The notes under the pieces were generated by a model that worked only from the letters and a program-made list of their open reading frames with translations, was not told where the DNA came from and did not search any database. 36,720 bases of DNA from positions 1 through 36,720 of the forward strand of contig JAGQTE010000099.1 in assembly GCA_020439175.1 (NCBI GenBank). The letters are read 5' to 3'. Of this stretch, positions 946 through 18,642 are shown one piece after another (position 1 is the stretch's first letter; the number at the start of each line of letters is the position of its first letter). The translations under genes were made by a program, and so were the position numbers. The stretch is from Acidimicrobiales bacterium. GTDB taxonomy: Bacteria > Actinomycetota > Acidimicrobiia > Acidimicrobiales > Acidimicrobilacustridaceae.

Positions 946-1467
946 TCAGTCGTACACGACGTCGAGGCCCTCGGCCCGCAGGCGAGCGAGGTTGTCGAGC
1001 ATGCCCTGGAGGACCTCCGGCGGGTGGGGGTCCCAGCACTGCACCTCGTCCACGACGCGCATCGGTTGCCGGGTGCGGTACGACCGGGTCACGTTGCCCG
1101 GGAAGCGCTTGTTCGTGACGTTGGGGTCGTCTTCGAACGGGCCGAGCGGCTCCACCACATAGATGCGTGCCGGGCCCCCACCCGTGTGGGCGACCGCTAG
1201 CTCGGCGCCCCAGACGGCGGGCTCCAGCAGGGCGGAGAAGTACACGTGGTTCGCGATCCGGTCCCGGTCGTGGTTCATCGGCTGTCCGGGGCCGATCAGG
1301 TCGCCGACCGCCAACGCCGCCGAGGTGCCGTGGAAGAACGGGCCGACGACGTGCGCGCAGCGGTCGAAGGTGACGGGGACGTGGTCGACGCCGTCGGCGT
1401 CGGCGATCGCCTCGGCGATCGACATGGTCCGGTAGCTGCGCTCCTCATCGTCCACCGTTGGCCCCAT
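946..1467 (-). CDS. arr: NAD+-rifampin ADP-ribosyltransferase Arr
   Basis: The product is a 173-aa member of the Arr family, which inactivates rifamycins in the cytoplasm by transferring ADP-ribose from NAD+ to the ansa-bridge hydroxyl. The family landmarks are all present: an HGT motif (His46), Tyr76 in the NHVYFS segment and Asp113 in FEDDPNVT. These correspond to the H/Y/D triad described in Mycobacterium smegmatis Arr. The SYRTRQP segment and the C-terminal VVYD ending also match. The usual length is about 140-150 aa, and the extra N-terminal ~30 residues depend on the start. I chose ATG 1465-1467 because GAGGAG lies three bases upstream; ATG 1423-1425 is the main alternative. No mobile element is near, so this looks like a resident chromosomal arr. 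Whether rifamycins are the real substrate in this organism is unknown. Confidence 0.93.
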   Translation of the reverse strand: MGPTVDDEERSYRTMSIAEAIADADGVDHVPVTFDRCAHVVGPFFHGTSAALAVGDLIGPGQPMNHDRDRIANHVYFSALLEPAVWGAELAVAHTGGGPARIYVVEPLGPFEDDPNVTNKRFPGNVTRSYRTRQPMRVVDEVQCWDPHPPEVLQGMLDNLARLRAEGLDVVYD

Positions 1468-1643
1468 TCGCTCCTCAGCTGCCCCCGCCATACTGCCGAG
1501 TGGTGCGCCCTTGCGCCGTACGGTCGGCTCGGCGTCGCCGGGACGCTTGCTACGTTGACGCCGTGACGGTGGATACCGGAGCCGCAGCGCACGACCACCC
1601 GCCTCGAGGCCCTGCAGTCCACCGTCCCGATCGACCGGGAGCT

Positions 1644-1803
1644 GTCGATGCGGCACACCACCCTCGGCCGATGCTCCACCCAGAGCCGGGCCGCAGCATG
1701 CGGGTCCCCGCGCCGTCGGAGGTGTCGATGCGGCACAACGCCCTCTGCCGGCCCTGCACCCTGAGCCGGATCGCCGTGTGCAGGTCCCCGCGCCGTCGGC
1801 ACC
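1644..1803. repeat. Imperfect 80-bp tandem repeat, two units
   Basis: Units 1644-1723 and 1724-1803 align without gaps at a period of exactly 80 bp. By direct count 62 of 80 positions are identical. Both begin with GTCGATGCGGCACA, and near their ends both carry GTCCCCGCGCCGTCGG. The best-conserved parts are the two ends and the centre is more variable. A further unit upstream was looked for and not found in register. The function is unknown. Confidence 0.75.
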
Positions 1804-5298: not shown

Positions 5299-6527
5299 AT
5301 CTGGCCTGACGTGGCGAACACCCACAGCTCGCCGTCGTTGTCCGTGCCGAACCCGCCCAGACCGCCCGGCGGCAATGCCGCGCCCAACGACCGCTGATCC
5401 TGCGCCACCCGGTTCGCCACCACCAGGCCCTCGACCACCCCGCTGCAGCCCTCGCCGAAGACGTAGGCGCCTCGCAGCGCCGGGATCGCCGCACCCCGGT
5501 ACACGGCGCCCTGGCGGAGGTCGCAGTGCCCCGGCGGCGTGATCGACACCACCGCGCCGGCCGTGTTCTGCGCCCCCGGATAACCGAGGTTGTCGCCCCG
5601 GCCGGCCTGGCTGTTCTGCCGGGGCAGGTACACGATCGTCTCGCCCGCATCCTGACGGTCGGTCACGTACAGGTCGGCCGAGGCCCGGTCGAAGACCACC
5701 CCACGCGGATCGTGCACCCCCAGGAGCCACACCTCCCCGGCGCCGCCGCCGGCGGCGTACGGGTTGCCGGGCGGCACGGCGTAGGCCTGATCGCCGAGCG
5801 CTCCTTCGGGGTCGAGGCGCAGCACCTTGCCGTACAACGAGTCCGGCCGTTGCGCCGCGCCCGGATCGCCGTCGGGGGTGCCCACGCCCACGTACAGGAA
5901 GCCGTCGCGACCGAACGCCAGGGCCCCGCCCCGCCGCAGGCCGTCGGGCGCCTCGACCCGCAGCAGCTGGAAGCGGCTCGACGTGTCCAGGTCGCCCTCG
6001 CCGGTGCGGTACTGGTCGACGACGACCGCCCCGTCCGAGGAGATGTACGACAGGTACATGCGCCGCCCGTCCGACGAGTAGGTCACGCCGCGCACACCGC
6101 CGCCGTCGCCCTGGTCGACCTGACGGCCGATGTCGAGCATGGTCCACGACTCCACGCGGTAGTCCGCCCCGGCGGGCTGGCCGTCACCGTCGTAGCGATA
6201 GTTCGCCGACAGCTGCCGCAACCGGCCGTTGCGCTCGGCCACCGTCAGGTGCGGCCACCCCGGCCGCGCCGCGATCGCCACCGGGTCATCGAGGGCGCCG
6301 ACCTCCTCGAGCCGCACCCCGACCCCCTCGAGCGTCGTCGGCCGCTCGACCGTCGACGCCGTCACCGCCTCGGCGTCCACCGGGATCGTGATGGTGGTCG
6401 TCGTCGACGGTCGCACCTCGGACAGCTTGCGCCCGTGCACGCAGCCGGCCGCCGGCACGACGATCGCCGCGGCGAGCACGAGGCCGGCGGCGGCGCGTCG
6501 CCGGGTGGTCTGGGGTGGAGTGGTCAC
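5277..6527 (-). CDS. PQQ-dependent sugar dehydrogenase-like lipoprotein (GSDH propeller)
   Basis: This 416-aa protein has a lipoprotein signal peptide: a twin-Arg-like basic run at 9-11, a hydrophobic stretch, and the lipobox PAAGC with Cys29. It should be anchored on the outer face of the membrane. The mature part resembles the soluble glucose/sorbosone dehydrogenase beta-propeller, with repeated blades such as GGALAFGRDGFLYVGVG, LLGVHDPRGVVFD and FGTDNDGELWVF. Propellers of this family bind PQQ and Ca2+ and oxidise aldose sugars, but many lipoprotein homologues are uncharacterised and I cannot confirm cofactor residues. The only plausible start is a GTG at 6525-6527 with a weak ribosome site. 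It follows tesB by 10 bp and is probably cotranscribed. Its 3' end overlaps the convergent GT4 gene by 22 bp. Confidence 0.8.
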   Translation of the reverse strand: MTTPPQTTRRRAAAGLVLAAAIVVPAAGCVHGRKLSEVRPSTTTTITIPVDAEAVTASTVERPTTLEGVGVRLEEVGALDDPVAIAARPGWPHLTVAERNGRLRQLSANYRYDGDGQPAGADYRVESWTMLDIGRQVDQGDGGGVRGVTYSSDGRRMYLSYISSDGAVVVDQYRTGEGDLDTSSRFQLLRVEAPDGLRRGGALAFGRDGFLYVGVGTPDGDPGAAQRPDSLYGKVLRLDPEGALGDQAYAVPPGNPYAAGGGAGEVWLLGVHDPRGVVFDRASADLYVTDRQDAGETIVYLPRQNSQAGRGDNLGYPGAQNTAGAVVSITPPGHCDLRQGAVYRGAAIPALRGAYVFGEGCSGVVEGLVVANRVAQDQRSLGAALPPGGLGGFGTDNDGELWVFATSGQIYRVLPI

Positions 6528-6537
6528 GTGGGCACCG

Positions 6538-7392
6538 TCATCGAGCGATCCGCATCAAGCCTTCTTGCACCACCGACACCGCCAGCTCGCCCGACGGGGT
6601 GTACATCAACCCCCGGGCGAGCCCACGTCCCTGCGATGCCGACGGGGCGTCCTGGTCGTACAGGAGCCACTCGTCGGCCCGGAAGGGCCGATGGAACCAC
6701 ATGGCGTGGTCGAGGCTAGCCATGAACACCTCGTCCTCGAGCGCGCCCACCGCATGCGGCAGCAGCGCCGTGTCGAGCACGGTCATGTCCGATGCATAGG
6801 TCACGACGCAGGCGTGCAGCACCGGATCGTCGGGCAGCACACCGTCGGCACGCAGCCACACCCGCTGGCGCGGCGGCAGCGCCACGGTGCGGTCCCCGGG
6901 CTGCCAGTCGCAGTTGCGGGTGTCGATGGGTCGGTCGCGCGTGTAGTCCTCGCCCATGGCGTCGGCCCAGCGGGCCCAGCGGGTCCGGAAGTCGGGCAGC
7001 GACTCCGGCGACGGGAGATCGGTCGGCATCGGCGCCTGGTGCTCGAAGCCTGCCTCGGGGACGTGGAACGAGGCCTGCAGGTTGAAGATCGGCCGACCGT
7101 GCTGCACGGCGACGACGCGCCGGGTCACGAAGGTGTGCCCGTCGCGTATGCGGTCGGCGGTGTAGAGGATGGGGATCGTCGGGTCACCCGGGCGCAGGAA
7201 GTAGGCGTGCAGCGAGTGCACGGCGTACGCCGCGTCGACGGTGCGCGCCGCCGCCACCAACGCCTGGCCCGCCACCTGCCCGCCGAACACCCGCTGGCGC
7301 TGCACCGACGGCGGGCGACCCCGGAAGACGTTGACCTCGATCGACTCCAGGTCGAGCAGATCCACCAGGTCGTCGACAGCAGGCTGGCCCAT
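6538..7392 (-). CDS. tesB: Acyl-CoA thioesterase II (TesB-like)
   Basis: The 284-aa protein has the double-hotdog layout and the length of TesB (about 286 aa). It hydrolyses medium- to long-chain acyl-CoA to free fatty acid and CoA in the cytoplasm. The N-terminal hotdog carries QRVFGGQVAGQAL. The C-terminal hotdog has the Asp-Thr/Ser-Gln active-site pattern seen in E. coli TesB: an Asp in TYASDMTVLD, Ser in SASQGRG and Gln in VVQEGLMR. The ATG at 7390-7392 leaves only 27 bp to the divergent GH1 gene. A TAGTAG hexamer nine bases upstream may be a weak -10 for a leaderless transcript. The lipoprotein gene follows 10 bp downstream. Confidence 0.93.
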   Translation of the reverse strand: MGQPAVDDLVDLLDLESIEVNVFRGRPPSVQRQRVFGGQVAGQALVAAARTVDAAYAVHSLHAYFLRPGDPTIPILYTADRIRDGHTFVTRRVVAVQHGRPIFNLQASFHVPEAGFEHQAPMPTDLPSPESLPDFRTRWARWADAMGEDYTRDRPIDTRNCDWQPGDRTVALPPRQRVWLRADGVLPDDPVLHACVVTYASDMTVLDTALLPHAVGALEDEVFMASLDHAMWFHRPFRADEWLLYDQDAPSASQGRGLARGLMYTPSGELAVSVVQEGLMRIAR

Positions 7393-7405
7393 GGAGCAGT
7401 TCTAC

Positions 7406-7411
7406 TAGCCT
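7406..7411 (+). promoter_or_regulatory. Leaderless -10 for the GH1 gene
   Basis: TAGCCT (TANNNT) lies exactly 8 bp before ATG 7420, and no Shine-Dalgarno sequence is present between them. This is the spacing seen upstream of several other genes in the window. It overlaps the region that must also hold the divergent tesB promoter. Confidence 0.55.
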
Positions 7412-7419
7412 CCGGCGCC

Positions 7420-8610
7420 ATGACCCGACGCTTCCCTGAGGGCTTCCGCTGGGGGACGGCCACCGCCGCCCACCAGGTGGAGGGCAACAACGTCAACAAC
7501 GACTGGTGGGCCTGGGAGCTCGCTCCGGACACGCCCTGCGTCGAACCCAGCGGGGACGCGTGCGATCAGTACCACCGCTACCCCGCCGACATCGCGCTGC
7601 TGGCCCAGCTCGGCTTCGACAACTACCGGTTCTCGATCGAGTGGAGCCGGATCGAACCCGTCGAGGGCCAGTTCTCACGCGCCGCCCTCGACCACTACCG
7701 CCGGGTCTGCGCCACCTGCCTCGAGCACGGCATCGAGCCCGTCGTGACGTACCACCACTTCACGAGCCCGCAGTGGCTGGCGGCCCAAGGCGGCTGGCAC
7801 GAGCGCGCCACGATCGAGAAGTTCGTGCGGTTCTCCGAGAAGGCCACCGAGCACCTCGGCGACCTCGCCGGACGCATCTGCACCATCAACGAGCCCAACG
7901 TCGTCGCCTTCATCGGCTACATGGTCGGCGCCTTCCCGCCGGGTGCGCTCGGCAAGGAGCACTGGCTGACGGCGCAGGACATCATGCGCGACGCCCACGT
8001 CGCCGCCACCGAGGCCATCAAGAACGTCGCCCCCGACGTGCCGGTCGGCCTCACGGTGTCGATGAGCGACTACCAGGCCGTCCCCGCCGACGACGACCTG
8101 GCCGTCGCCCGCCGCGACCGCATCCGCTTTCTCAGCGAGGACCACTACCTCGAGGCCTGCCGCGACGACGACTTCATCGGGGTGCAGACCTACAGCCGCA
8201 CCCGCATCGGGCCGGAGGGCGAGCTGGGGCCCGAGGACGGCGTGCCGGTGCTGCCGATGGGCTACGAGTACTACCCCGAGTCCCTGGCGGCCACGATCCG
8301 CCGGGCCTGGGAGGTCACGGAGCAGACCCCCGTGCTCGTCACCGAGAACGGCATCGGCACCGACGACGACACGCAGCGCCAGGCGTACCTGCGAGCAGCG
8401 CTCGAGGGCGTGCTCGACTGCATCGACGACGGCATCGAGGTGCTCGGCTACACGTGCTGGAGCCTGCTCGACAACTTCGAGTGGGCGTTCGGCTACGGGC
8501 CCCGCTTCGGCATCGTCGACGTCGACCGCGCCACGCAATTGCGCACCCCGAAACCGTCGGCGCACTGGCTCGGTGGTGTCGCCCGCGCCAACGCCCTCGA
8601 CCGTCCCTGA
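7420..8610 (+). CDS. Glycoside hydrolase family 1 beta-glucosidase
   Basis: The 396-aa protein is a GH1 (TIM-barrel) retaining beta-glycosidase, hydrolysing terminal beta-glucosides, galactosides or related sugars. The N-terminal signature FRWGTATAAHQVEG is present. The acid/base Glu158 lies in TINEPN and the nucleophile Glu309 in VTENGIG. YTCWSLLDNFEWAFGY near the C-terminus supplies the typical aglycone and sugar-binding residues. Members commonly reach 440-460 aa, so this is a compact version, shortened mainly in loops between the two catalytic segments. No signal peptide is seen, so it should be cytoplasmic. The ATG at 7420 is preceded by a leaderless-type -10. No sugar transporter is adjacent, so the substrate is open. 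Confidence 0.95.
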   Translation: MTRRFPEGFRWGTATAAHQVEGNNVNNDWWAWELAPDTPCVEPSGDACDQYHRYPADIALLAQLGFDNYRFSIEWSRIEPVEGQFSRAALDHYRRVCATCLEHGIEPVVTYHHFTSPQWLAAQGGWHERATIEKFVRFSEKATEHLGDLAGRICTINEPNVVAFIGYMVGAFPPGALGKEHWLTAQDIMRDAHVAATEAIKNVAPDVPVGLTVSMSDYQAVPADDDLAVARRDRIRFLSEDHYLEACRDDDFIGVQTYSRTRIGPEGELGPEDGVPVLPMGYEYYPESLAATIRRAWEVTEQTPVLVTENGIGTDDDTQRQAYLRAALEGVLDCIDDGIEVLGYTCWSLLDNFEWAFGYGPRFGIVDVDRATQLRTPKPSAHWLGGVARANALDRP

Positions 8611-16290: not shown

Positions 16291-18642
16291 ATGGCCACCG
16301 TGTCGTGGCGCACCATCAGCAGCACCCTCGGTCGCGTCGTCGCGCTCGTGCTGGCGCTCGTCGTCGGTGCCGCCGTGGCGACGAGCACCCCCGCGGCGGC
16401 GCAGCAGGCCGGCACCAGCGAGGCGGTCGACCGGGCCGCGCCCACGGGCGCAGGCGAGCAGGCCGGGCCGGCCGAGGTCTCGCCGCTCACCGTCACCGGG
16501 CCCGTGGCGGTCGACGGCGTGCTCTCCGCCATCGAGCGCGACGTCGGCGCCTCGACGGCCCTGTCGGACGGCAACCGCCTGTGGGCGTTCGGTGACTCCT
16601 ACGGCGGCGGCTTCCACACCTCGACGGCTGCGTTCACGACGCCGGGGGCGCCGAACACGCTCGTCGAGCCGTTCGACGCCAACGGCGACCGTTACGAGCT
16701 GATCCCCCACACCGCCGACGAGGCGGCCTTCGACCGCGGGTTGCGCTTCCACGCCATCGACCCGACCCGCCTGGCCGACACCCGCGACGCCACCGGTGAC
16801 CGCTGGCCCGTCGGGCGGGCCGCCGGGCCGCTGACCCCCGCCGACGCCCTCTGGCTCGACCTCGACGCCCATCCGGCCCTGGCCGGCATGGTCGGGGGCG
16901 GTGCGGTCGTGCTCAACATCACGGGCGTCAACACCGTGACCGGCTCGACGTTCACCCATCTCTCGGTGGGCCAGGTCTTCACCGCCTTCACGACCTCGAC
17001 CCTCAACCTGGCACCGGGCGAGGTCGCCGCCAACCTCACGACGCTGTCGCTGGGGCTGGGCGGCATCGTCGGCGTGCGCACGAACAGCGGCGCCACCCAC
17101 GTCGTGGTCGACCTCCTCGGCTGGTACGACGCGGCGCACACCGTGGCGGGGGCGAACGGCGGGACCACCCTGCAGGCGATCAGCCCCCAGCGTGCGATCG
17201 ACACCGGCCACGCCGCGCCCTTGCGGGCCGGCCAGCCCCGGCTGGTGGCGATCGGCGGTGCGGCAGCCCCCGTCGGTGCGACCGCGGCCCTCGTCAACGT
17301 GACGGCGGACGCGCCGACCGCCGACACGCACCTGACGGTGTGGCCCGCCGGCACGGCGCCCCCGCCGACGTCCAACCTCAACCTCCCGGCCGGCACCACG
17401 CGGGCGAACCTGGCGGTGGTTCGGCTCGGCGACGGCGGGGCCATCGCCATGAGCACGAGCAGCGGCGCCACCCGGGCCATCGTCGACGTCGTCGGCTGGT
17501 ACGGCCCTGGCGCCACGGGCGACCTAGTGCCGGTCACCCCGATCCGTCTCCTCGACACCCGCCCGAGCGGCGCGCCGCTCACGACGGCGGGGCGGACGAT
17601 CACCCTCGACCGGCACCACGTCCCGGCCGGGGCGCGGGCGGCGCTGGTCAACCTGACCGCCGTCGGCGCATCGACCGGGATGCACCTCACGGCCTGGGCC
17701 GGTGGGCAGGCCCAGCCGCCGACGTCCAACCTCAACCTCCCCGCCGGCGCCACCCGCCCCAACCTGGCGCTCGTCCCGCTCGACGCCCAGGGACGCGCCA
17801 CGCTGCGCACCTCGGCGGGCGCCGCCCACGTGCTGGTCGATCTGCTGGGCTTCGTCGGCGCCGGCGCGTCCGTGCCCGATCCGTGTCCGACGCGCGCAGC
17901 CGGCGATCCGCGTCCGTACGTCGCGCTGTGGCCTCAGTCCATCGTGGCCATCCCCGCCGGGCCCGGTCACGACGCCGTCCACATCTGGTACGTGCGCGAG
18001 ACCGTGTGCACCTCGACCACGTATGTGCACGGCGACGTCGGCGTGGCCGTGTACGACCACCGTCCGGCGATCGATCCGATCGGCTCGGCGCCGATCGTGG
18101 CCGAGCGTCGCAACGATCACCTGTTCACGACGGCCGAGCGCTACGCCTGGGGCCGCGGCGGCATCCTCGACGGCGGTGCCGTGCACCTGTTCGGGTGCGA
18201 TCCGTCCTTTGACCTGGCGTGCCGCCGCACCGTGGCGCCCGCCGGCGGCGACCTGACGGTCCGCCCCAGCTACGTCGACGACCCGTCCGACCTCGACCTG
18301 CCGCCCAACCTGGCGGCGCAGAACCCACCGGCGGGCATCTCCGTGGAGTGGGTACCCGCACTCGGCCTGTACACGATGCTGTACCTCCCACCGCCGTGGC
18401 CGTCGGACACCGTGCTGCTGCGCACGGCGACCGACCTGGCCGGCCCCTGGTCGGATCCGATCGCCATCACGCTGCCCGGGTGCTCTTCGGGCGACGACGC
18501 CTGCTACACGCCTCGGGTCCGCCCTGACCGCTCGACCGCCACGAGCCTGGCCTTCACCTACTTCGACATGGCGGTGACCGCCGACCCCATCTTCAACGGG
18601 CGTCTGCTCACCGCCCGCCTGCCCGTGGCCGTCGTGCCGTGA
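16291..18642 (+). CDS. Secreted protein: three DTR repeats nested in a DUF4185-like propeller
   Basis: The 783-aa protein has a Sec signal peptide (helix about 15-31, cleavage after Ala37 in PAAA-QQ). Residues about 85-150 look like the opening of a DUF4185-type glycosidase-like propeller, with LSDGNRLWAFGDSYGGGFH. Three repeats of 110-128 aa follow (153-280, 294-404, 411-523). Each has a DTR/DTG-type start, an ALVNVT-like strand, an SNLNLPAG-like loop and an ending such as VVDLLGWY. Such repeats are common in exported actinobacterial proteins. Propeller-like sequence resumes at about 543 with YVALWPQSIVAIPAG and runs to the C-terminus with paired cysteines. The architecture is therefore nested, not tandem. 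No anchor or sorting signal is seen. ATG 16291 has only a distant GAGGAG. The domain name is from pattern memory. Confidence 0.8.
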   Translation: MATVSWRTISSTLGRVVALVLALVVGAAVATSTPAAAQQAGTSEAVDRAAPTGAGEQAGPAEVSPLTVTGPVAVDGVLSAIERDVGASTALSDGNRLWAFGDSYGGGFHTSTAAFTTPGAPNTLVEPFDANGDRYELIPHTADEAAFDRGLRFHAIDPTRLADTRDATGDRWPVGRAAGPLTPADALWLDLDAHPALAGMVGGGAVVLNITGVNTVTGSTFTHLSVGQVFTAFTTSTLNLAPGEVAANLTTLSLGLGGIVGVRTNSGATHVVVDLLGWYDAAHTVAGANGGTTLQAISPQRAIDTGHAAPLRAGQPRLVAIGGAAAPVGATAALVNVTADAPTADTHLTVWPAGTAPPPTSNLNLPAGTTRANLAVVRLGDGGAIAMSTSSGATRAIVDVVGWYGPGATGDLVPVTPIRLLDTRPSGAPLTTAGRTITLDRHHVPAGARAALVNLTAVGASTGMHLTAWAGGQAQPPTSNLNLPAGATRPNLALVPLDAQGRATLRTSAGAAHVLVDLLGFVGAGASVPDPCPTRAAGDPRPYVALWPQSIVAIPAGPGHDAVHIWYVRETVCTSTTYVHGDVGVAVYDHRPAIDPIGSAPIVAERRNDHLFTTAERYAWGRGGILDGGAVHLFGCDPSFDLACRRTVAPAGGDLTVRPSYVDDPSDLDLPPNLAAQNPPAGISVEWVPALGLYTMLYLPPPWPSDTVLLRTATDLAGPWSDPIAITLPGCSSGDDACYTPRVRPDRSTATSLAFTYFDMAVTADPIFNGRLLTARLPVAVVP
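16747..17130 (+). repeat. DTR repeat A of the secreted protein
   Basis: It encodes residues 153-280 and is the most divergent of the three copies. DTR is present (residues 163-165), the SNLN loop is changed to STLNLAPGEVAANL, and the copy ends in VVVDLLGWYD. Confidence 0.7.
17170..17502 (+). repeat. DTR repeat B of the secreted protein
   Basis: It encodes residues 294-404. The DTR position reads DTG. The copy includes TSNLNLPAGTTRANLAVV and ends in VDVVGWYG. The stretch 17362-17387 is identical at DNA level to 17716-17741 in repeat C, which suggests recent duplication or gene conversion. Confidence 0.75.
17521..17859 (+). repeat. DTR repeat C of the secreted protein
   Basis: It encodes residues 411-523 and is the most canonical copy. 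It starts IRLLDTR, includes TSNLNLPAGATRPNLALV and ends LVDLLGFVG. Confidence 0.75.

Follow-up and report, generated by a model that had tools for sequence, protein, structure and literature searches.

The DUF4185 proteins form CAZy family GH183, the members of which are retaining endo-D-arabinanases (PMC10509167, PMC10115798). In EndoMA1, D33 is the nucleophile and D51 the acid/base, mutants of the third carboxylate, E243, are nearly inactive, and a putative D-arabinan-binding CBM forms a separate domain past the propeller (PMC10509167). The Glu mutant of DgGH4185b was largely active, whereas the two Asp mutants were not (PMC10115798). Glycosidase propellers with a domain inserted between their blades are known from the GH33 sialidases. 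In RgNanH (PMC4747158) and NanC (PMC4646021), the inserted domain protrudes between two propeller blades, and NanA, NanB, and NanL also carry this I-domain. Engineered single-chain trimers of C1q, adiponectin, and TNF-family proteins (C1q-scGR, 4zch) consist of three tandem beta-sandwich units with very short linkers; in single-chain C1q, linkers of 3 aa suffice because the chain termini come together at the base of the trimer (PMC4774423). In Bdellovibrio, the tip of the MAT fibre Bd2133 (8ok3) is also a trimer, a homotrimer of three chains at the fibre end (PMC10769870).

In the present study, we analyzed P0001, which is encoded in a window of 36,720 nucleotides (the whole stretch of DNA examined). 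P0001 is a secreted GH183-like propeller with a three-repeat DTR module between blades I and II, and we consider it probable that this module is a closed pseudo-trimer with a binding role. Similar to the GH183 endo-D-arabinanases EndoMA1, DgGH4185a, DgGH4185b, and Rv3707c, P0001 is modeled as a five-bladed propeller; its best fold match is EndoMA1, the catalytic pair of which (D33/D51) aligns with D84/D102. Similar to the GH33 sialidases, it carries a domain inserted between two blades. However, the GH33 propeller is six-bladed and its beta I-domain is smaller (residues 403-498 in NanC), whereas P0001 combines a GH183-like propeller with a three-repeat module. This module is located inside the propeller, in contrast to the CBM of EndoMA1. 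The features of P0001 in the window are listed below.

16291..18642, + strand: whole gene of the secreted nested protein P0001 (783 aa; ATG at 16291, stop at 18642; high GC3 frame)
16291..16404, + strand: Sec-type signal peptide, residues 1-38 (hydrophobic helix, then TPAAAQQ; AF2 helix 11-26)
16528..16740, + strand: N-terminal propeller segment, residues 80-150 (positions 2-72 of the uninterrupted-relative profile; blade I in the AF2 model)
16540..16542, + strand: D84, aligned with the EndoMA1 nucleophile D33 (alignment to 8hhv)
16594..16596, + strand: D102, aligned with the EndoMA1 acid/base D51 (alignment to 8hhv)
16747..17130, + strand: DTR repeat 1, residues 151/153-280 (E 5.7e-42)
17170..17508, + strand: DTR repeat 2, residues 294-406 (E 4.4e-44; motif Arg replaced, DTG)
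17524..17859, + strand: DTR repeat 3, residues 412-523 (E 3.3e-43)
17884..17886, + strand: C532, aligned (alignment A5) with the conserved CP motif immediately past the insert
17899..18639, + strand: C-terminal propeller segment, residues 537-783 (profile positions 76-339, E 1.4e-33; DUF4185 E 4e-4; blades II-V of the AF2 model)

The leader is of the Sec type and ends in PAAA-QQ. The list of Cys residues makes a C532-C573 disulfide possible. A Pfam search with P0001 yielded two weak matches, one to DUF4185 near the C-terminus (E 4e-4) and the other to DUF5005 at residues 87-114, and nothing useful was obtained from NCBIfam or PDB sequences. P0001 did not match phage records and DTR repeats were not found in viral contigs; there was no sign of a phage origin for either. 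Elsewhere in the window, 949-1656 (- strand) encodes a protein with a Rifampin ADP-ribosyltransferase (Arr-ms) domain, and 6229-8607 (+ strand) contains a Glycosyl hydrolase family 1 match inside a longer open frame with a putative TTG start.

The original prediction was that propeller-like ends surround three DTR repeats, which form a module inserted in a glycosidase-like propeller. We searched P0001 with a profile of ten uninterrupted relatives only, and both nested proteins were left out to avoid circularity. Residues 80-146 matched profile positions 2-72 (E 4e-11) and residues 537-782 matched positions 76-339 (E 1e-33), with 3 profile positions unmatched over a 390-residue gap. The same profile matched the nested homologue L023 in two parts, 5-72 and then 65-317. 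Because the profile was covered in this split manner in both proteins, the two ends are consecutive parts of one domain; separate domains, or ends from different families, were rejected. These results confirmed that a single propeller in P0001 is interrupted by approximately 380 residues holding three DTR repeats. The open reading frame, the repeat matches, and the split profile bore out the predicted layout.

The alignment placed the insert after '...TADEAAFDRG' (approximately residue 150) and before 'DPCPTRAAGDPRPYVALWP' (approximately residue 530). Since the motif 'CPxDAPRxGMWP' of the uninterrupted relatives is matched by 'CPTRAAGDPRPYVALWP' (532-548) in the alignment, the insert is best set at approximately 151-529, a refinement of the 153-523 initially proposed. 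The nested homologue (L023/L050; L018/L023), from a second Microthrixaceae genus (g4), is 39% identical to P0001 and carries the insert at the same point, with the same order and junctions. Uninterrupted relatives, for which a search had been recommended, were found within the same family (L019, L021, and L022 in the family search) and the same order. Many more were obtained in a class-wide search and alignment scan (84,980 species genomes), and a scan of genome contigs with the C-terminal half alone confirmed no relatives. P0001 carries the motif P.R..DTR ... N.T ... P..SNLN ... N ... D..G three times, and the DTR-motif Arg is absent from repeat 2 in both nested proteins (window 17170-17508; L023:3732-4109). 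This Arg is kept in 219 of 222 repeats, and only one repeat outside the nested proteins lacks it. The shared absence fits one ancestral insertion.

Other additions were observed among the relatives. In L022 (G036:C7), the uninterrupted propeller continues into a long tail, which consists of Calx-beta-like repeats. In L034:1-1788 (G309:C39), a DUF4185-like propeller contains a different insert, consisting of SCxSxxxCYAxG repeats, in the loop past 'VTYNDVC' in blade II. This insert had no match in Pfam and looks like a second propeller nested within the first.

The AF2 model of P0001 (mean pLDDT 71, pTM 0.64) supported the glycosidase-like assignment. Its first Foldseek match was 8hhv (EndoMA1; probability 1.00, E 1.4e-5), the GH43 and GH62 five-bladed enzymes ranked shortly after it, and the whole-chain TM to 8hhv was low (0.22), as expected for an insert-interrupted model. 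Similarly, the profile of relatives matched 8hhv and 8ic1, structures of the endo-alpha-D-arabinanase EndoMA1 (E 2.8e-12). In the model, the strands of blade I are 83-90, 96-103, 109-117, and 120-125, and those of blade II are 543-557, 560-572, 578-590, and 605-612. The insert is located between strand D of blade I and strand A of blade II, an outer-to-inner connection. The module had been envisaged as projecting from one blade; the strand order places it instead where blade I passes into blade II. Connections of this type in propellers of this class are on the face where the inner strands start. From this topology, the DTR module appears to overhang the catalytic face, where D84 is located.

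The core of the DTR repeat is near-invariant (P.R..DTR, VP, N.T, P..SNLN, N, and D..G), and its first R and last D were invariant in 222 repeats. The repeats did not match Pfam, NCBIfam, or PDB sequences, and the annotations of DTR proteins in public plasmid records are hypothetical, PKD-domain, or cutinase-family protein. We sampled 80 unique array-bearing ORFs from Microthrixaceae and across the phylum. Exactly three repeats were present in 74 unique ORFs. L131 contains three repeats and a spurious fourth match (E 0.26), and the three-repeat array of L097 (G033:C15) extends over two reading frames (two ORFs), which is probably due to a frameshift or pseudogene. One genuine two-repeat array was found, in L135 (- strand ORF, 1070 aa). 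The remaining array ORFs are fragments or are cut by contig ends and lie outside the complete-array count. Three repeats were also present in three Streptomyces proteins and one Curtobacterium protein. Exactly three repeats were thus present in 80 of the 81 complete arrays sampled across Actinomycetota (loci L096-L135, L164-L183, and L194-L197, and L002-L014 of the genome of P0001). The linkers between repeats have a median length of 5 aa. Identity within an array reached 87%; since the three copies are 70-87% identical in some arrays, homogenisation or re-amplification has probably occurred without a change in number. The constant count of three suggests a structural constraint, with the array folding as one unit.

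AF2 predicted eight strands per DTR repeat. A single repeat matched the beta-sandwich at the tip of the Bd2133 fibre (8ok3; TMt 0.68, 3.3 A, probability 1.00), a similarity in fold at 11% sequence identity. The whole array matched single-chain APRIL-BAFF-BAFF, viral C1q/BclA-like proteins, and an entry for the C1q trimer of Cbln1 in Foldseek, although these matches were weak (TM 0.19-0.25). From the constant count, the short linkers, and these matches, we infer that the DTR array may form a pseudo-trimer within one chain and serve as a binding head. The engineered single-chain trimers are laboratory-made, whereas the DTR module is natural, has no sequence relation to them, and is only predicted to close into a trimer. 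A full-text literature search of open-access papers, which is weak evidence of absence, found no paper on DTR repeats or on a natural single-chain C1q-like trimer.

Alternatively, the three repeats may be independent beads on a string, as in other tandem beta-sandwich modules, such as CBM pairs, with three being merely a common copy number. AF2 did not confidently pack the repeats against each other (pTM 0.52 for the module alone, from a two-sequence alignment), and Foldseek also matched tandem CBM22 and other multi-sandwich proteins. However, we consider this arrangement less likely because the count of three holds over several orders. Arrays with high internal identity also hold three repeats, whereas recent duplication is expected to vary the count. 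Furthermore, an extended string of approximately 370 aa would part its ends and be a poor fit to insertion in a propeller loop. A closed pseudo-trimer would bring its ends together and would, therefore, fit this loop.

D84 and D102, which align with the catalytic pair of EndoMA1, both precede the insert, and alignment A5 shows no variation at R83, D84, G86, and F100-G101-D102. In contrast to EndoMA1, P0001 has Gly at the position of E243, which is not conserved in the clade. P0001 also missed the cut-off of PF13810 (GH183/DUF4185; 20.2 vs 39.5 bits), and the scores of nested L023 and uninterrupted L046 were 42.7 and 50.1 bits, respectively. We refer to P0001 as GH183-like, a superfamily relative and not a member, because it missed both the Pfam cut-off and the third carboxylate. 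Given this Gly and the score below the cut-off, the activity or substrate of P0001 may differ from those of GH183. The same two observations, together with the near inactivity of the E243 mutants of EndoMA1, are compatible with a catalytically dead propeller that now serves as a binding or scaffold protein bearing the DTR module. However, the invariance of D84, D102, and the residues around them makes this less likely, and the behavior of the DgGH4185b mutants, in which the two Asp residues and not the Glu were required, also argues against it. We favor an active GH183-like propeller.

A D-arabinan gene cluster was not found around P0001 within the window. An Emb-type arabinosyltransferase was not found in the genome of P0001, and the control genome was positive. 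We infer from these two results that any D-arabinan substrate would originate from other bacteria. A GH172 partner is typical of D-arabinan loci, but is not strictly defining. PF11175 (DUF2961; the GH172 partner) had no match in the genome of P0001 and none in the control genomes either. A Pfam search of the genome of P0001 for DUF4185 missed even P0001 and was of no use for counting paralogues.

DTR repeats were initially described as usually forming tails or stand-alone arrays. This description holds for the majority: the array ends within 10 residues of the stop in 56 of the 74 unique three-repeat arrays and within 35 residues in 4 more. However, 14 of the 74 are N-terminal or internal, and the module is near the N-terminus, shortly past the leader, in L103, L174, L175, L178, and L180. 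The hosts include an M23 peptidase with fn3, as well as CAP, GSDH, RCC1, PD40, and RHS-like proteins. The module is common to unrelated secreted proteins, in which it is C-terminal, N-terminal, or internal. In L114:40-2775 (G035:C26), we counted five PD40-type blades before the array and two after it by eye, and the PD40 match was strong before (E 4e-15) and weak after (E 0.047) the array. L114 is probably a second, independent nesting of DTR repeats, in which the array separates blade 5 from blade 6 of a PD40-type propeller. The predominance of C-terminal arrays would also be expected if the DTR module were a sorting or export tail and not a binding head. However, this is highly improbable because the module is internal in P0001 and L023, is apparently within the propeller in L114, and is N-terminal in the five proteins above, and a C-terminal sorting signal would be unworkable inside a propeller. 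The nested layout as an assembly or gene-fusion artefact of a metagenome bin (the window is a 36.7 kb contig in a bin of 562 contigs) was ruled out because two independent assemblies from different genera share its order and junctions, and both proteins lack the same Arg.

We propose the following explanation for P0001 as a GH183-like propeller with a DTR binding head. The gene product is a secreted GH183/DUF4185-like five-bladed propeller and probably a glycanase, retaining and endo-acting, that targets a cell-wall polymer of the furanose type. Blade I carries the Asp residues aligned with the nucleophile and the acid/base, and an ancestor probably gained the DTR module, with all three repeats, between this blade and blade II. 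The three jelly-roll-like repeats would pack as a closed one-chain pseudo-trimer, similar to engineered single-chain C1q/TNF heads. The module would project from the active-site face and, similar to a carbohydrate-binding module, may dock the enzyme on a polymer of the cell surface or the extracellular space, a role close to the surface or glycan binding suggested in the original prediction. More tentatively, we speculate that the DTR array represents a single-chain trimer that is both natural and widespread, with three C1q/TNF-like sandwiches and meeting ends, a plug-in binding head for the tail, front, or propeller loop of secreted actinobacterial proteins, which in P0001 may present or dock a cell-wall glycan at the catalytic face.

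In the original prediction, this nested layout was not known to have been described. A domain between propeller blades has a precedent in GH33; the new elements are a GH183-like host, an insert made of DTR repeats, and the strict rule of three repeats. The GH183-like identity and the fixed three-repeat unit were not part of that prediction and were added by the present analysis. An uncharacterised module of many Acidimicrobiia secreted proteins, patchy in other Actinomycetota, is now tied to a recognisable enzyme, and its constant number of three provides a testable rule on the nature of the module. Moreover, the nested case is informative as a natural experiment, because a C-terminal sorting tail could not work from within a propeller and the module must have its ends close to each other. 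If the pseudo-trimer is correct, many secreted proteins now labelled 'hypothetical' would be explained by a single structure.
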